In this document: in pieces, positions 11,148 to 26,251 of the stretch
How positions within the stretch are numbered: the stretch's first letter is position 1
Layout: each line of letters starts with the position of its first letter
Source: Nitrospirota bacterium
Lineage (GTDB): Bacteria; Nitrospirota; Thermodesulfovibrionia; SZUA-242
Assembly (NCBI GenBank): GCA_003235715.1
Contig: QJVM01000223.1
Location: 1-44,147 of the forward strand
Reading direction: 5' to 3'
DNA length: 44,147 nt
Translations under genes and position numbers: made by a program
Notes under the pieces: model-generated
The model's input: the letters and a program-made list of their open reading frames with translations, nothing else
Database searches by the model: none
What the model was told of the DNA's origin: nothing

Positions 11148-11930
11148 TTACAATCCAGTAGGGATTTCCGGGTCACTGTTGGCGGAATCAGAAATAGGGT
11201 GGTTCCGTTCGAGGAGCAGCCGTTTGATGTGGAGACGAACTGAGACGTGCACGCGCTTGTCCCACAGGGCATCCCTCAAGTCAAGTGGCCGGAGGTCCGG
11301 AAGAAACCCGACGCAGTCCTGAAGCGGGGTATGGCGGTTTCTAAGGAGAGCCAGCCTGATGTTGTACCGGATGCGCCACCGGGGATGGGAGGCCACCATG
11401 CGGATGGTCGTGGCCGATGTGAGATCATGAAAGATAACCCGATAGAGCCGTCCTTCGGTCATATATGGGTTGTTCAGGCAGAGAACGGTGAGTTCCATAC
11501 GGTCTTCCTGGAGAAGACGGCGGAGAATCCCGTTCCGTCCCAGCCGGGCAAGGCTCTTCTTGATACCCAGGGGCTGTCCGGGTATTTTTTCTACCAGGAA
11601 TTCCTCAACCTTGCGGCGGAGAATGGGAGAAATCCGCATGTCCCGAAGCAGGGAGAGCAGGTCCATGATGCCGAGGTATTTCAACTGTTTCAGGGAAACG
11701 TGGAGGGGAGTCTTGGGGTTCCGGGTGGCGGTGGACCGGATCCGAATGTTATCGCCCCATTCCTTTCGTGCCAGAATTTCTTCGAGGAGGAGAGGCGGCG
11801 TATCACTGCGCGCCACCAGCCTGAGAACCTGTGTGTCCGAGAGGGAGATGTCGGCCAGCTGCCTGCGGATGCGTGACCGGGTTGCACCGAGCGCGTTACT
11901 AACCAGAGCTTCGAGCAAAGCGTCGGTCAT
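11148..11930 (-). CDS. HEAT-like / variant leucine-rich repeat protein of unknown function
   Basis: This 260-residue soluble protein is built of helical repeats of about 40-50 residues. They contain recurring patterns such as NPKTPLHVSLKQLKYL, MRISPILRRKVEEFL, NRHTPLQDCVGFLPDL and KRVHVSVRLHIKRLLLERN. Such T/S-P-L-x-V-A-L repeats followed by basic helices occur in alpha-solenoid scaffold proteins of this bacterial group, so protein or nucleic-acid binding is plausible. The start is the ATG at 11930. It converges on the degenerate GGDEF pair with 69 bases between. The plus strand is also open here, but that frame shows no recognisable protein pattern. Function unknown. Confidence 0.7.
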   Translation of the reverse strand: MTDALLEALVSNALGATRSRIRRQLADISLSDTQVLRLVARSDTPPLLLEEILARKEWGDNIRIRSTATRNPKTPLHVSLKQLKYLGIMDLLSLLRDMRISPILRRKVEEFLVEKIPGQPLGIKKSLARLGRNGILRRLLQEDRMELTVLCLNNPYMTEGRLYRVIFHDLTSATTIRMVASHPRWRIRYNIRLALLRNRHTPLQDCVGFLPDLRPLDLRDALWDKRVHVSVRLHIKRLLLERNHPISDSANSDPEIPTGL

Positions 11931-12128: not shown

Positions 12129-12156
12129 TTGCCGATGTGGGAAATTGGGATAGAAT
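12129..12156 (+). promoter_or_regulatory. sigma-70 promoter for the SSADH / TPP-enzyme pair
   Basis: TTGCCG (12129-12134) and TAGAAT (12151-12156) are spaced by 16 bases and match the -35 and -10 consensus at 4/6 and 5/6. Transcription would begin near 12163, giving a leader of about 80 bases. A nearby GG-N9-GC looks like a sigma-54 site but its spacing is one base short. Confidence 0.5.
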
Positions 12157-12242
12157 TGCAGATAGTCACTGTTGCTGCGCGTTGACGGGGGGGGCGGTGA
12201 CAGGACGCATACTTAGGCCAGAGGGTAAGGAGGCATCATATC

Positions 12243-13607
12243 ATGGCTTTGATTTCGATAAACCCGGCTTCGGGTGAAACACTCCGGGAATTCAAGGAAT
12301 GGTCGGCTGGCGAAGTGCAGCGGGTTCTGGATGACGTCCATGTCGCCTGGTCGGCCTGGAGATATATCGAATTGTCGGAGCGGGGGAAACATATGTCGCG
12401 ACTGGCGTCCGTTCTGCGCGGGCAGAGGGATGACCTTGCAAAGATCATAAGCCTTGAGATGGGTAAACCGATTATGGAAGCCCGGGCTGAGGTCGAGAAA
12501 TGCGCCATGGTGTGCGAACACTCGGCAGCGCATGCCGCGGAATTTCTGTCCCCGGAGTTTCTGGGGAGTGACGCGTCTCGCAGCTATGTCCGGTTTGACC
12601 CGCTCGGAGTTATCCTGGCCGTTATGCCATGGAACTTCCCCTTCTGGCAGGTGTTCCGCTTTGCGGCACCAGCCCTGATGGCCGGAAACGGTGTGCTTTT
12701 GAAACATGCGTCGAATACCACGTGGTGTTCCCTTTCCATCGAGGGGCTTTTGGTCCAGTCGGGCTTTCCTGAAGACGTGTTCCGTTCCGTTCTTGCAGGT
12801 TCCTCCTTGGTCGCCGGTATCATCGCAAATCCAAAGATAGCGGGAGTAACGCTTACCGGCAGCGCCGCCGCCGGAAGGGCCGTCGGTGAGGCGGCGGGTC
12901 GTGCCCTCAAGAAGACCGTTATGGAACTGGGCGGGTCAGACCCCTTTATCGTGCTGAAGGATGCGGACCTTGATTTTGCCGCAGGACAGGCGACCCTCTC
13001 TCGAACCCTCAATTGCGGGCAGAGTTGTATAGCCGCCAAGCGGTTTATTGTGGAAAAGCCGGTGCTGGAGCCATTCTTGACAAGATTCAGAGAAAGGATG
13101 GAAGCCCTTGTGGTCGGGGATCCCTTATCCGAGGAAACCCAGGTCGGTCCCCTCGCTCGGCCGGACCTTCGCGAACAGTTACATCGACAGGTGGAACGGT
13201 CCGTTCAGCAGGGCGCGGAGGTGGTGCTTGGAGGCAAGCCTGTCCCGGGACCGGGTGCCTTCTATCTCCCCACGATTCTCACGGGGGTGAAGCCCGGAAT
13301 GCCGGCCTTTGACGAAGAGCTTTTTGGTCCTGTGGCTTCGATTATTGCAGCAGAGGACGCTGAAGAGGCGCTGCAGTTGGCGAACGACACCGCCTTCGGG
13401 CTTGGGGCGAGCCTATGGACGCAGAATACGGAGCGGGCCGAGAAACTGGCTGGACGCGTCGAGGCAGGCGCGGTATTCATTAACGGTTTCGTCAAGAGCG
13501 ACCCCCGTCTTCCGTTCGGGGGGGTCAAGGAGTCCGGCTACGGGCGGGAACTTTCCGCTTACGGAATCCGTGAGTTTGTGAACATCAAAACGGTATGGGT
13601 GAGGTAA
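12243..13607 (+). CDS. NAD(P)-dependent succinate-semialdehyde dehydrogenase, Sad/YneI type
   Basis: The enzyme oxidises succinic semialdehyde to succinate in the cytoplasm. The 454-residue protein follows the E. coli Sad (YneI) layout closely: NPASGE at the start, AVMPWNFPFWQV, the cofactor-fold stretch VTLTGSAAAGRAVG, the general-base region MELGGSDPFIVL, and catalytic Cys262 in NCGQSCIAAKR. Near the C-terminus is LPFGGVKESGYGRELS. The start is the ATG at 12243 behind AAGGAGG. Only 6 bases separate its stop from the TTG start of a thiamine diphosphate enzyme, so the two are translationally linked. In cyanobacteria the same two families together convert 2-oxoglutarate to succinate, which is the role suggested here. 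Other small aldehydes remain possible substrates. Confidence 0.92.
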   Translation: MALISINPASGETLREFKEWSAGEVQRVLDDVHVAWSAWRYIELSERGKHMSRLASVLRGQRDDLAKIISLEMGKPIMEARAEVEKCAMVCEHSAAHAAEFLSPEFLGSDASRSYVRFDPLGVILAVMPWNFPFWQVFRFAAPALMAGNGVLLKHASNTTWCSLSIEGLLVQSGFPEDVFRSVLAGSSLVAGIIANPKIAGVTLTGSAAAGRAVGEAAGRALKKTVMELGGSDPFIVLKDADLDFAAGQATLSRTLNCGQSCIAAKRFIVEKPVLEPFLTRFRERMEALVVGDPLSEETQVGPLARPDLREQLHRQVERSVQQGAEVVLGGKPVPGPGAFYLPTILTGVKPGMPAFDEELFGPVASIIAAEDAEEALQLANDTAFGLGASLWTQNTERAEKLAGRVEAGAVFINGFVKSDPRLPFGGVKESGYGRELSAYGIREFVNIKTVWVR

Positions 13608-13613
13608 AGAGCC

Positions 13614-15248
13614 TTGAAAGTTGCAGAGCTGATTGTCCGTTGTCTTGAAAACGAGGGTGTGGACCTCATCTATGGTCTGCCAGGGGAGGAAAACCTTGAA
13701 TTGCTGGAGGTCCTTCAGGATTCCCGGATTCGGTTCATCCAGACGCGCCACGAACAGGGAGCCGCCTTCATGGCTGATGTCTTCGGACGGCTTACGGGCC
13801 GCGCCGGTGTCTGTCTTTCGACCTTGGGGCCGGGGGCGACGAACCTGATAACAGGCGTGGCGGATGCCTTTCTTGATAGGGCCCCCGTGGTTGCTCTTAC
13901 GGGCCAGGTCGATCGGGACCGTCTGCACAAGGAAAGCCATCAGAATATTGATCTCGTGGAAATCATGCGCCCGGTCACCAAGTGGAACACCCGGATCATG
14001 CATCCGCCGGTGGCAGCAGAGGCCGTCCGGAAGGCGTTCAAAGTGGCCCAGGTCGAAAAGCCGGGTCCGACCCATCTGGACATCCCCGATGACGTGGCGG
14101 CAGAAGAGGTAAACGAGGGGCCGCTTCCGGTCAACTGGCCAAAACGAGGGGAACCGGCAGAACGTGAGATCGAACGAGCTCTGGAAATCCTCAGGTCCGC
14201 GCGGTATCCGATTATTATTGCGGGCAACGGAGTGGTTCGGGGGCAGGCGTCTGACACCCTGATAAGGTTTGCGGAGGCTTTCGAGATTCCTGTGGTCACG
14301 ACGTTCATGGGTAAAGGAGTCATTCCATACACCCATCCCCTGGCCCTCTTTACCGTGGGGCTTCAGACGAAGGATGTTTCGTACTGTGGTCTGGACAGGG
14401 CGGACGTGGTTGTTTCCGTGGGATACGACCTGGTTGAGTATGCGCCGGAGTTCTGGAACCGCGATCGGGACAAGAGACTGATTCAGATCGATACGGTTCC
14501 TGCGGAGGTGGACGCCTCCTATAACGTCAATGTCGGCCTGATTGGGGATATCGCGGCATCCCTTCGACGCCTCACGGAGAAGGCGTTCAAGGCAGGAGGA
14601 ACCCCGGTTTCAGGGTTGCGGGACCTGGTGTTTGGCGAACTGGAATCCTTCCGTTTGGACAGCACGTTTCCTCTGAAGCCCCAGAAGGTCGTGGCGGATA
14701 TGCGCACGGTGCTGGGCGACTCGGATATTGTCGTTTCTGATGTGGGCGCACACAAGATGTGGATCGCGCGGCTGTACCCCTGTGTGGTTCCAAATACCTG
14801 TATTATCTCCAACGGTTTCGCGGCCATGGGGATTGCGGTACCGGGTGCCCTGGCGGCCAAAATGCTTTACCCGGAAAGAAGGGTTCTGGCGGCCACCGGG
14901 GACGGGGGATTCCTGATGAACGCGCAGGAACTTGAAACCGCTGTGCGGGTGAAGGCTCCTTTCGTAACTCTTGTGTTTCGGGACAATGAATACGGCCTGA
15001 TCCGTTTCAAGCAGATGACCCGATTCAAGCGGACGGCCTACGTGGATTTCGGCAATCCGGATCTGGTCCGGTTTGCGGAGAGTTTCGGCTTGAAAGGGTA
15101 CCGGGTCGCCGCGGCCAGTGAACTCCTCCCGATTCTCGAGGACGCCTTCACGCAAGAGGTTCCCAGCGTTATCGACTGCCCGGTCCAGTACGGGACGGAG
15201 AACCTTCGGCTTCTGGAACGGATGGGCAAGGTGATCTGCACCTTCTGA
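13614..15248 (+). CDS. thiamine diphosphate enzyme of the acetolactate synthase family, candidate 2-oxoglutarate decarboxylase
   Basis: This 544-residue protein has the three-domain fold of acetolactate synthase. The N-terminal domain has GLPGEEN and catalytic Glu47 in TRHEQGAAF. The C-terminal cofactor domain has TGDGGFLMN followed by RDNEYG. The start is a TTG with the ribosome site in the preceding stop region (GAGGT). It is not the biosynthetic enzyme: ilvB/ilvN lie nearby, no small subunit adjoins this gene, and the MVRQWQ substrate-site motif of IlvB is here GLIRFKQ. AlsS-type acetoin formation is an alternative, but no acetolactate decarboxylase gene is next to it. Pairing with SSADH favours decarboxylation of 2-oxoglutarate to succinic semialdehyde; this is inferred from context. 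Confidence 0.88.
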   Translation: MKVAELIVRCLENEGVDLIYGLPGEENLELLEVLQDSRIRFIQTRHEQGAAFMADVFGRLTGRAGVCLSTLGPGATNLITGVADAFLDRAPVVALTGQVDRDRLHKESHQNIDLVEIMRPVTKWNTRIMHPPVAAEAVRKAFKVAQVEKPGPTHLDIPDDVAAEEVNEGPLPVNWPKRGEPAEREIERALEILRSARYPIIIAGNGVVRGQASDTLIRFAEAFEIPVVTTFMGKGVIPYTHPLALFTVGLQTKDVSYCGLDRADVVVSVGYDLVEYAPEFWNRDRDKRLIQIDTVPAEVDASYNVNVGLIGDIAASLRRLTEKAFKAGGTPVSGLRDLVFGELESFRLDSTFPLKPQKVVADMRTVLGDSDIVVSDVGAHKMWIARLYPCVVPNTCIISNGFAAMGIAVPGALAAKMLYPERRVLAATGDGGFLMNAQELETAVRVKAPFVTLVFRDNEYGLIRFKQMTRFKRTAYVDFGNPDLVRFAESFGLKGYRVAAASELLPILEDAFTQEVPSVIDCPVQYGTENLRLLERMGKVICTF

Positions 15249-15265: not shown

Positions 15266-15308
15266 AAAACAGTTCGGGGCGACGACCCGTGGTCGCCGCC
15301 CCCGTTTT
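15266..15308. terminator. bidirectional intrinsic terminator
   Basis: GGGGCG-A-CGACC (15276-15287) pairs with GGTCG-C-CGCCCC (15291-15302) around a CGT loop, with one mismatch. The stem is flanked by AAAAC on the left and GTTTT on the right, so either strand ends in a T run. It lies between two convergent operons, where a shared terminator is expected. Confidence 0.75.
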
Positions 15309-15328: not shown

Positions 15329-15814
15329 TCAGGGAGCTGTGCCTTCGCGGGCCATGGCCACCTTACCCGTGCGTACAAACTCCTTGATCCCGATGGGTTT
15401 CAGAAGATTGATCAGAGCCTCGATCTTCTTTTCATCCCCCGTTACTTCTATGGTATAGGTCTTCTGACTGGAATCCACGACCCGGCCCCGGAATATTTCG
15501 GTCAGTCTCAAAACTTCGGCCTTGTGCTCCTGCTTGGGCGCAACCTTGATTAGAACCATCTCCCGTTCGATGTGGTCGACCTCTACGAGATCCACAACCT
15601 TGATTACATCGATGAGTTTGTTCAACTGCTTCGTAATCTGTTCAATAATCTGATCGTCGCCCCGGGTGACGATCGTCATCTGGGAAACGGACGAATCCAG
15701 GGTCATTCCCACGGAGATGCTTTCAATATTAAAGCCTCGTCCGCTGAAGAGGCCTGAAACGTTTGAGAGGACGCCAAACTTGTTGTTGACCAGAACTGAA
15801 ATCGTATGTCTCAT
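15329..15814 (-). CDS. ilvN: acetolactate synthase small (regulatory) subunit
   Basis: The small subunit activates the large subunit and confers valine feedback inhibition in the first common step of branched-chain amino-acid synthesis. The 161-residue protein opens with the N-terminal ACT domain (HTISVLVNNKFGVLSNVSGL, then RGFNIESISVG), which forms the regulatory site. A C-terminal ferredoxin-like half follows, with FRGRVVDSSQKTYTIEVTG. The length is typical. Its ATG shares one base with the ilvB stop (TAATG), so translation is coupled. The bidirectional terminator at 15266-15308 closes the operon, and ilvC does not follow. Confidence 0.96.
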   Translation of the reverse strand: MRHTISVLVNNKFGVLSNVSGLFSGRGFNIESISVGMTLDSSVSQMTIVTRGDDQIIEQITKQLNKLIDVIKVVDLVEVDHIEREMVLIKVAPKQEHKAEVLRLTEIFRGRVVDSSQKTYTIEVTGDEKKIEALINLLKPIGIKEFVRTGKVAMAREGTAP

Positions 15815-17562
15815 TACTTCACCGCCTTCAGCCTTCTGGCTTTGGTTTTCTTGGGCTCCTGAAGAAGCATCTGGTCGATGGAGGCTCCGGCCGGGACCAT
15901 GGGATATACCTTTTCCTTCCAGTCGCAGATGAAGTCCATGAAAACAGGCTTTTTCAACCGGAAAGCCTCCTTGATGACCGGGACGACCTCACTCGGTTTG
16001 GTGGCCCGTAACCCCACGGCTCCGTACGCTTCCGCCACCTTCACAAAATCCGGAATCATGTGCGAATCCAGGAAGGTGTGCGCGTAGCGTTCCTCGAAAA
16101 AGAGCTCCTGCCATTGGCGCACCATACCCAGGTACTGGTTGTTCAGAATGGCGACCTTGACGGGCAGTTTGTTGATCACGGCGGTGGCGAGCTCCTGAAT
16201 ATTCATCTGGATACTGCCGTCACCCGCGATGTCCACCACCAGTGCATCCGGTGCCGCCATTTGCGCGCCGATGGCGGCAGGAAAACCGTAGCCCATGGTC
16301 CCGAGGCCTCCAGAGGAAAGCCAGCGTCGCGGCTTTTCATACCTGTAAAACTGGGCCGCCCACATCTGATTCTGACCGACTTCCGTGGTGATGATGGCGT
16401 TCCCCTTGGAAATTTCGTATAGCTTCTCCACAACGTACTGGGGTTTGATAACTTCGTCATCATAGTCGTAAGTGAGCGGATGCGATTCATTCCACTGACG
16501 TATCTGTTTCAGCCACGCCTGCTGGACCGCATCCCACTTGTGTTTCAGTTCACTCTTGAGAACGCCATTCATATCCTTGAGCACGTGTTTGATATCGCCG
16601 ACCACCGGGATGTCCACACGAACGTTTTTTCGAATAGAGGTCGGATCGATATCGATCTGAACGATCTGTGCGTGCGGGGCAAAGGTGTTTGTCTTGCCGG
16701 TCACCCGGTCCTCAAAGCGTACGCCGACCCCCAGAAGCAGGTCAGAGTTCTGGATGGCCATATTGGCGCAGTAAGTGCCATGCATGCCGGGCATGCCCAG
16801 GTAGAGGGGGTTCGAGGCCGGGAAGGCGCCGAGAGCCATCAGCGTGGTCGTCACCGGTGCATTGAGAATGGTCGCAAGCTCGAGCAGTTCGGCGTAGGCC
16901 CCCGAGGCCACCACGCCGCCGCCGGCGAGGATCAGGGGTTTCTTGGCCCTGGCGACGGCCGCGGCCGCCTGACGGACCATCTGCTTGTTTCCGGCGACCT
17001 TGGGGCGATAACTCGGGATATCAATCTTCTCCGGCCAATCGAAGTCACAGGCGGCCGCAGTGACATCCTTGGGAAGATCAACCAGCACGGGCCCTGGACG
17101 TCCGGTTCGGGCGATGTGGAACGCTTCCTTGATGGTTGGCGCGAGATCCTTCACGTCCTTGACGAGGTAATTGTATTTGGTGCAGGGCCGGGTGATTCCC
17201 ACGATATCGGCTTCCTGAAACGCATCGTTGCCGATCAGTACCGTGGGCACCTGCCCGGTCAGAACGACCATGGGAATGGAGTCCATATAGGCCGTAGCAA
17301 TTCCGGTGACTGTATTGGTGGCCCCCGGGCCGCTGGTGACCAGTACGACACCCGGTTCGCCGGTAACGCGTGCGTACCCGTCCGCCATATGAACCGCACC
17401 CTGTTCGTGGCGGGTCAGAATCAGCTTCAGCTCCTTGTCATCATAAAGCTCGTCGAAAATTCCCAGTACGACACCGCCGGGATAACCGAAAACGGTGGAC
17501 ACCTTTTCCCGCTTGAGGGCTTCCAGGATGATCTGGGCTCCAGTCAGTTTTTTCTTCGCCAT
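15814..17562 (-). CDS. ilvB: acetolactate synthase large (catalytic) subunit
   Basis: This enzyme condenses two pyruvates, or pyruvate with 2-oxobutyrate, using thiamine diphosphate and FAD. The ATG at 17562 gives 582 residues beginning [10 protein letters not shown]. An in-frame GTG at 17574 is rejected because the AAGGAG ribosome site abuts it directly. Family marks are the catalytic Glu in [16 protein letters not shown], the cofactor motif AGDGSIQMN with the downstream [13 protein letters not shown], and the herbicide-site Trp in that same motif. It lies 57 bases after ilvD and is coupled to ilvN. It is the true biosynthetic enzyme, in contrast to the paralogue at 13614. Confidence 0.97.
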
Positions 17563-17619
17563 AGGGTCAAACACTCCTTCTCGAAAAACTTCTATGAATA
17601 AACGCCTTCTTATACGGGA

Positions 17620-24787: not shown

Positions 24788-26251
24788 ATGGTGACGTACA
24801 CCGATGCCACGGCCCTGGTTTCACAGGGATACTCGTGCACTCCATCATTTTTTCTGGAGGTTCGGGAGAAGGTCGGGACAGGACGGATTCTGTGCCGCGA
24901 GATACTGAGGATCCTGCCTGGAAGACGGCTGGTGTTTAGAGGTCAGTGGCACGAGAGGCTCGTAGTGGTTAAGGTTTACCTGGCTCGGGGGACGGCGCAA
25001 AGGCACGTCGACCGGGAAATGAAGGGCGTGAACGCCCTCAAGGCGGCAGGTGCAAGGACGCCTCGCGTTCTCCTGGAGACGAGTCTTTCAGGCGACGGTT
25101 CCCCAGTTCTGGTTTTTGAAGAATTGCCTGCGGCTCTGACGCTTTCCGAAGCTGTGGTGCAGGCCAAGGATCCTGCCACCCAGGAAACCCTTTTGCGGCA
25201 AGCAGTACAAACCGTTGCCGCCCTCCACGAGGGGGGGCTGGTTCAGCGTGATATTCATCCGGCCAATTTTCTTTTCTCAGGTGATGAACTCTACACGATT
25301 GACGCGGATTCTGTGGACACACGCAGGGCTGGAACTCCCCTGGGGCAGTGGCCCAGTCTGGTGAATCTGGGCCTGTTTTTTGCCCAGTTTTCCGGGAACC
25401 TGGAGCCTTTCTTTTCCGGCCTCTATCGCGACTACGCCCGAGCACGGAGGTGGGATGAGTCTCGATGTTCCTTTCCCGAACTGCAGAGACATATTGCCGA
25501 ACAGTGGGAACTCAGGAAAGGGCAGTACCTCAGAAAGATTTTCAGGTCCAGCACGGAACACATTTGCCAGAGGGAGTGGAGCCGATACTCCGTGTGGGAA
25601 AGGGGCTGGGACGGTGACGACCTCCGTTCCTTTCTGGCAAATCCTGACGGCTACCTGGAGGGAGGGGAGGTGCTCAAAGACGGCCGTTCCAGCACGGTGG
25701 TGGCGGTCCTCATGAATGGATGCCGGGTGGCGGTCAAACGGTACAACCTGAAAAACCCGTGGCACGTGTTGAGGCGATGTTTACGGAGCACCCGTGCGGC
25801 TGTTTCCTGGAGGAATGCCCATCTTCTCGGGATGATGGGAGTCAGGACCCCCGACCCGGTCCTCCTCCTCGAAAACAGGTGGGGGATTTTTCGTGGTTCC
25901 AGCTACTTTGTTTCCCGATACGTTGAAGGCCGCCCGTATCAAAAGATTTTTGAAGGTCCTTTTCATGAGGCCGGGTGTGGCCGAGACCCCCGGGTTCAGG
26001 AGTTCGTGCGGATGCTGATTCTGCTCAGGAAGCATCGGCTCAGTCACGGGGACATGAAGTCGACGAACTTCATTGAGTCGGACAGAGTTCTCTGGGTCAT
26101 GGATCTGGATGCCATGAAGGAACACGGAGACGAAGCATCACACCGCCGGGCTCTGGCAAAGGACTGCGCCCGGTGGATGCAGAACTGGAAGGCCCACCCG
26201 AAGGTGTCCCACTGTTTCCGAGAGGCCCTGCAAGAAGCGGGGTTCCTTTAG
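24788..26251 (+). CDS. tandem lipopolysaccharide-kinase-like protein with two kinase domains
   Basis: This 487-residue cytoplasmic protein appears to be two small eukaryote-like kinase domains in a row. The first (about 1-250) has a phosphate-site Lys62 in VVVKVYL, a catalytic loop VQRDIHPANFLF (D155, N160) and a metal Asp172 in TIDADSV. The second (about 290-487) has Lys317 in VAVKRYN, a loop SHGDMKSTNFIES (D422, N427) and an Asp in VMDLDAM. Both sets of key residues are present, so both halves could be active. The loops resemble the Kdo-kinase/WaaP family, and the gene follows waaP, so a role in phosphorylating LPS core sugars is likely. The substrate is not known. The length is about double a normal family member. 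Confidence 0.85.
   Translation: MVTYTDATALVSQGYSCTPSFFLEVREKVGTGRILCREILRILPGRRLVFRGQWHERLVVVKVYLARGTAQRHVDREMKGVNALKAAGARTPRVLLETSLSGDGSPVLVFEELPAALTLSEAVVQAKDPATQETLLRQAVQTVAALHEGGLVQRDIHPANFLFSGDELYTIDADSVDTRRAGTPLGQWPSLVNLGLFFAQFSGNLEPFFSGLYRDYARARRWDESRCSFPELQRHIAEQWELRKGQYLRKIFRSSTEHICQREWSRYSVWERGWDGDDLRSFLANPDGYLEGGEVLKDGRSSTVVAVLMNGCRVAVKRYNLKNPWHVLRRCLRSTRAAVSWRNAHLLGMMGVRTPDPVLLLENRWGIFRGSSYFVSRYVEGRPYQKIFEGPFHEAGCGRDPRVQEFVRMLILLRKHRLSHGDMKSTNFIESDRVLWVMDLDAMKEHGDEASHRRALAKDCARWMQNWKAHPKVSHCFREALQEAGFL

Follow-up and report, generated by a model that had tools for sequence, protein, structure and literature searches.

A gene pair for a probable 2-oxoglutarate decarboxylase and a succinate-semialdehyde dehydrogenase in a Nitrospirota bacterium

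We analyzed a 44,147-nucleotide stretch of DNA from a Nitrospirota bacterium (the window), and found that it very probably encodes a succinate-forming bypass of the tricarboxylic acid (TCA) cycle. As read from its sequence, a small operon would comprise an NAD(P)-dependent succinate-semialdehyde dehydrogenase (SSADH) and a TPP-dependent 2-oxoglutarate decarboxylase, which likely form a parallel branch to succinate. In the proposed pathway, the decarboxylase would convert 2-oxoglutarate to succinic semialdehyde and CO2, as suggested by homology and pocket residues, and the SSADH would convert the semialdehyde to succinate, probably with NADP+ given its residues K154 and S157. Succinate would then pass to succinate dehydrogenase, and the bypass would require neither CoA nor ferredoxin. 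This enzyme pair is already known from cyanobacteria: in Synechococcus sp. PCC 7002 (A2770/A2771), among others, the OgdA/SsaD bypass uses the same two families, encoded adjacently on one strand, and deleting either gene in PCC 7002 has the expected effect on the pools of 2-oxoglutarate and of the semialdehyde (PMC5160925). In the open-access literature, we found no paper on the gene pair in the present lineage. The original prediction had likened the pair to A2770/A2771, an assignment supported by sequence identity, pocket residues, phylogeny, and gene order.

The two open reading frames lie on the forward strand, 6 bases apart as predicted, with the spacer reading AGAGCC. The upstream gene (12243..13607) encodes a 454-residue SSADH of the Sad/YneI type, identified by profile and residue comparison; it begins with ATG and ends with a TAA stop codon at 13605-13607. 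The downstream gene (13614..15248) begins with TTG and encodes a 544-residue TPP enzyme of the NF006187/PRK08322 family, which homology, pocket residues, the phylogenetic tree, and gene order mark as a probable 2-oxoglutarate decarboxylase. Each start is preceded on the same strand by a Shine-Dalgarno-like sequence: AAGGAGG (12227..12233) 9 bases 5′ of the SSADH start, and GGTGAGG (13598..13604) within the 3′ end of the SSADH gene, 5′ of the TTG start. Genuine ilvN (15329-15814) and ilvB (15814-17574) genes, identified by profile, occupy the reverse strand alongside the pair, in agreement with the original prediction. Between the convergent ends of the gene pair and ilvN, we identified a 12-bp G+C-rich hairpin (15276..15302; no strand assigned) that is likely a terminator common to both, and its position fits a two-gene transcript. 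The promoter that had been proposed for the pair did not hold up: the sole sigma-70-like match (12129-12156; 9/12) compares with 1.3 expected by chance, and we discarded it because the count is no higher than chance. Elsewhere in the window, a 260-residue open reading frame on the reverse strand (11148-11930), divergent from the operon, has no Pfam match, and a 487-residue protein (24788-26251) gives only weak kinase-like or aminoglycoside-phosphotransferase-like matches.

The TPP enzyme shares its fold family and domain order with AlsS and IlvB, containing the N, M, and C domains along with the catalytic Glu and the GDG motif. It scores 750 bits against a cut-off of 509 in NF006187/PRK08322, a family that bears the NCBIfam name “acetolactate synthase large subunit”. 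The protein does not reach the AlsS models (PRK08617, 496 vs 510 bits; TIGR02418, 461 vs 551 bits) or the IlvB model (TIGR00118, 407 vs 538 bits). In place of the IlvB motif MVRQWQ it carries GLIRFKQ, confirming a point of the original prediction, and no small subunit of its own lies adjacent. Unlike its shared fold, its substrate pocket differs from those of AlsS and IlvB, and its identity to them is ≤37%. That the 544-residue enzyme is neither IlvB nor AlsS is well supported at the sequence level.

For comparison, we assembled 80 reference loci, almost all cyanobacterial and including Microcystis aeruginosa NIES-4325; these were retrieved with a query fragment, and all evidence was drawn from the retrieved DNA alone. 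The TPP enzyme is 53-58% identical to 71 cyanobacterial proteins, including 57.7% over 544 residues to the NIES-4325 protein (L068). We take the latter to be MiKGD, matched by strain rather than by gene tag. MiKGD, the decarboxylase of this strain, has been assayed and is active (PMC10418658). By comparison, the window protein is 36.6% identical to AlsS and 31.4% identical to the neighboring IlvB of its own genome. Since L068 is itself only 35.9% identical to AlsS, the window protein is as distant from AlsS as the decarboxylase is. The closest solved structures are AlsS-type enzymes, with AlsS the nearest.

We next compared the predicted active site with that of the Microcystis aeruginosa decarboxylase MaKGD, for which the residues in contact with TPP or 2-oxoglutarate have been listed, together with those required for activity (PMC10418658). 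In an alignment mapping, the window protein keeps 14/14 of these residues, AlsS 6/14, and the genome's own IlvB 4/14. The window protein is identical to MaKGD at Q254, V382, A384, H385, K386, A408, M410, D435, D462, Y465, L467, K471, and Y531 (MaKGD numbering), and its E47 (codon 13752..13754, forward strand, as are the following) is equivalent to the catalytic Glu50. Three positions are associated with 2-oxoglutarate by docking: Q251 (14364..14366) is equivalent to Gln254, which forms a hydrogen bond; K381 (14754..14756) to Lys386, a contact residue; and K466 (15009..15011), within GLIRFKQ, to Lys471, which forms a salt bridge. The roles of K386, K471, and Q254 come from docking, and none of the three is among the mutants described (PMC10418658). 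The Microcystis enzymes resemble the window protein in the complete residue set and in overall identity, but differ in genomic context, as an SSADH gene was not found beside the decarboxylase gene of NIES-4325.

In a careful phylogenetic tree, the window protein and the cyanobacterial enzymes fall in an 18-row clade with support of 100/98. Its further members are the protein of a second genome of the same family (G192), relatives from the phylum, a single plasmid-encoded protein, and three proteins from gut-type metagenome-assembled genomes (MAGs). Outside this clade lie AlsS and the other PRK08322 subclades, and within it the window protein branches beside the cyanobacterial enzymes rather than among them. 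The expected grouping with cyanobacterial decarboxylases, apart from AlsS and IlvB, is therefore recovered in the tree. Forcing the window protein and its G192 counterpart together with AlsS was not rejected in an AU test (p 0.169), nor was grouping this pair with the cyanobacterial and gut-type sequences alone (p 0.15), and joining it to subclades with altered pockets was weakly rejected (p 0.039). On these outcomes, the pair may or may not have arrived by transfer. Sequences closely related to the cyanobacterial decarboxylase, at 76-79% over the query fragment (L118-L121), occur in MAGs labeled Fibrobacter, Ruminococcaceae, and Veillonellaceae, with no adjacent SSADH in the retrieved DNA.

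The best PDB match of the SSADH is Synechococcus PCC 7002 A2771 (4it9), with 488 bits and a gapless alignment over 454 residues, and its identity to cyanobacterial SSADHs is 48-55%. In cyanobacterial SSADHs, mutation or structure has shown that R139 and S419 matter at the carboxylate of the substrate, and K154 and S157 for NADP (PMC7510979). All tested residues are kept in the window protein (11/11), including the catalytic C262, E228, and N131, the semialdehyde-binding W135, R139, and S419, and the cofactor residues K154 and S157. The protein scores 563 bits against the strict NCBIfam equivalog cut-off of 730 for PRK09406. The SSADH tree joins the window and cyanobacterial enzymes weakly (80/35).

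The order of the two genes recurs in other genomes. An SSADH gene lies directly upstream of the decarboxylase gene on the same strand in 53 of the 69 cyanobacterial loci with enough upstream DNA, and G192 has the same pair in the same order, with identities of 68% for the TPP protein and 65% for its partner; this shared order argues that the pairing is not due to chance. The cyanobacterial loci thus share with the window the pocket and active-site residues as well as the upstream SSADH, and differ in that the window's host is non-cyanobacterial and also encodes KorAB-like oxidoreductases. The same gene order, with the SSADH annotated, is found on a plasmid of the archaeon Halorarius, and the literature mentions a pair of this kind in Thiomicrorhabdus (PMC9751133). 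Of 296 genomes sampled from the window's phylum, 90 encode a PRK08322 member above cut-off, and among the phylum loci examined only the window and G192 have both the complete decarboxylase pocket and a Sad-type SSADH beside it.

A PRK08322 subclade of the same phylum (L016, L023, L025-L030, and L036) also adjoins the same SSADH type, which lies directly upstream in, for example, L016, L025, and L036, but the pocket for 2-oxoglutarate is largely gone from its TPP enzyme. Its members differ from the window protein by Q254H, V382N, A384I, H385Y, and L467F, with Lys471 replaced by Glu in several. The SSADH partners examined beside this subclade keep their active-site residues, one with S157 changed to P. 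Either the altered-pocket enzymes use a different substrate, or the residue roles assigned by docking are wrong.

These relatives bear on whether the window enzyme acts on a different, related 2-oxo acid, with the aldehyde dehydrogenase acting on the matching semialdehyde. Changed pockets beside the same SSADH type do indicate that substrate is not uniform in the family; the window protein, however, retains all 14 residues of the set, and R139 and S419, which serve a four-carbon semialdehyde, are present in its SSADH, so that we regard this reading as extremely unlikely. The TPP enzyme could instead be an acetolactate synthase, catabolic or anabolic, that lacks a small subunit and lies beside an SSADH gene by accident. 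The family name, the nearest solved structure, and the failure of the AU test to reject an AlsS grouping all lean this way, but identity is far higher to the Microcystis decarboxylase than to AlsS, the pocket is that of a decarboxylase, the SSADH pairing is conserved, and a true ilvBN adjoins the gene. We consider an acetolactate synthase very improbable.

Related TPP enzymes of the superfamily are carboligases, and the window enzyme might decarboxylate 2-oxoglutarate mainly as a carboligase that, for instance, joins the succinic semialdehyde unit to a second aldehyde or to an oxo acid, leaving the SSADH to clear leaked semialdehyde. SSADHs do also serve in detoxification (PMC7510979). Against this, the characterized Microcystis relatives release the aldehyde (PMC10418658) and the operon contains no gene of a partner pathway, leaving little likelihood for a primarily carboligating enzyme.

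Our TCA inventory is based on family searches in an assembly of 271 contigs with 95.8% completeness, so absences are provisional. No 2-oxoglutarate dehydrogenase E1 scored above cut-off in the genome, the one weak match being DXS. A bypass that replaces the standard step would call for the absence of a ferredoxin oxidoreductase route as well, but the genome encodes two KorAB-like (OAFO-type) loci, putatively for 2-oxoglutarate, with nearest solved relatives including 2-oxoglutarate and general 2-oxo-acid enzymes, as well as pyruvate and indolepyruvate oxidoreductases. Citrate synthases and SdhAB are present, and so is sucC, of which a contig end leaves the N-terminal 285 residues. Given these genes and the KorAB-like loci, the proposals that the cycle is incomplete and that the bypass replaces the standard step are not supported. 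Because of the KorAB-like oxidoreductases, the bypass most likely runs in parallel and is not the only way in which the cycle is closed. The host had also been described as an anaerobe, which is doubtful given that aa3- and cbb3-type oxidases are encoded; it appears able to respire oxygen. Isocitrate dehydrogenase was not found in searches with PF00180 or PF03971, the one PF00180 match being LeuB, a gap that contrasts with the presence of citrate synthase, succinate dehydrogenase, and oxidases. Given the KorAB-like genes, sucC, and the missing isocitrate dehydrogenase, physiological need for the bypass is more weakly supported than the identity of its enzymes. No glutamate decarboxylase family member was found in the window genome or G192, and for this reason we discarded the GABA shunt as a source of the semialdehyde. 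The window does encode a class-III aminotransferase, ArgD, which adjoins ArgF.

The bypass probably operates alongside a route that depends on ferredoxin and CoA, and one may speculate that the bypass and KorAB divide the work between them according to oxygen. If confirmed, the cyanobacterial bypass would also occur, in operon form, in an unrelated lineage that apparently respires oxygen, beside KorAB-like enzymes, and the label “acetolactate synthase” in automatic annotation would conceal a decarboxylase. Part of the PRK08322 family is probably misnamed in this way, and reconstructions of many genomes may as a result wrongly score the TCA cycle as incomplete or add acetolactate synthesis. More tentatively, a large part of PRK08322 might be 2-oxoglutarate decarboxylases; in that case the bypass would be common, as a parallel branch, among non-photosynthetic bacteria that respire oxygen yet keep the oxygen-sensitive KorAB, and would allow them to switch between ferredoxin- and NADPH-yielding routes.

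Contig C40 of the same genome (L170 5472-7275) encodes a 518-residue fusion of a KorB-like subunit with a C-terminal CBS-domain part. Directly 3′ of this fusion lies a 76-residue piece from the end of the succinyl-CoA ligase alpha subunit. We considered from this sucD fragment alone that succinyl-CoA synthetase had been lost, and dropped the idea, as sucC is merely truncated by its contig end.
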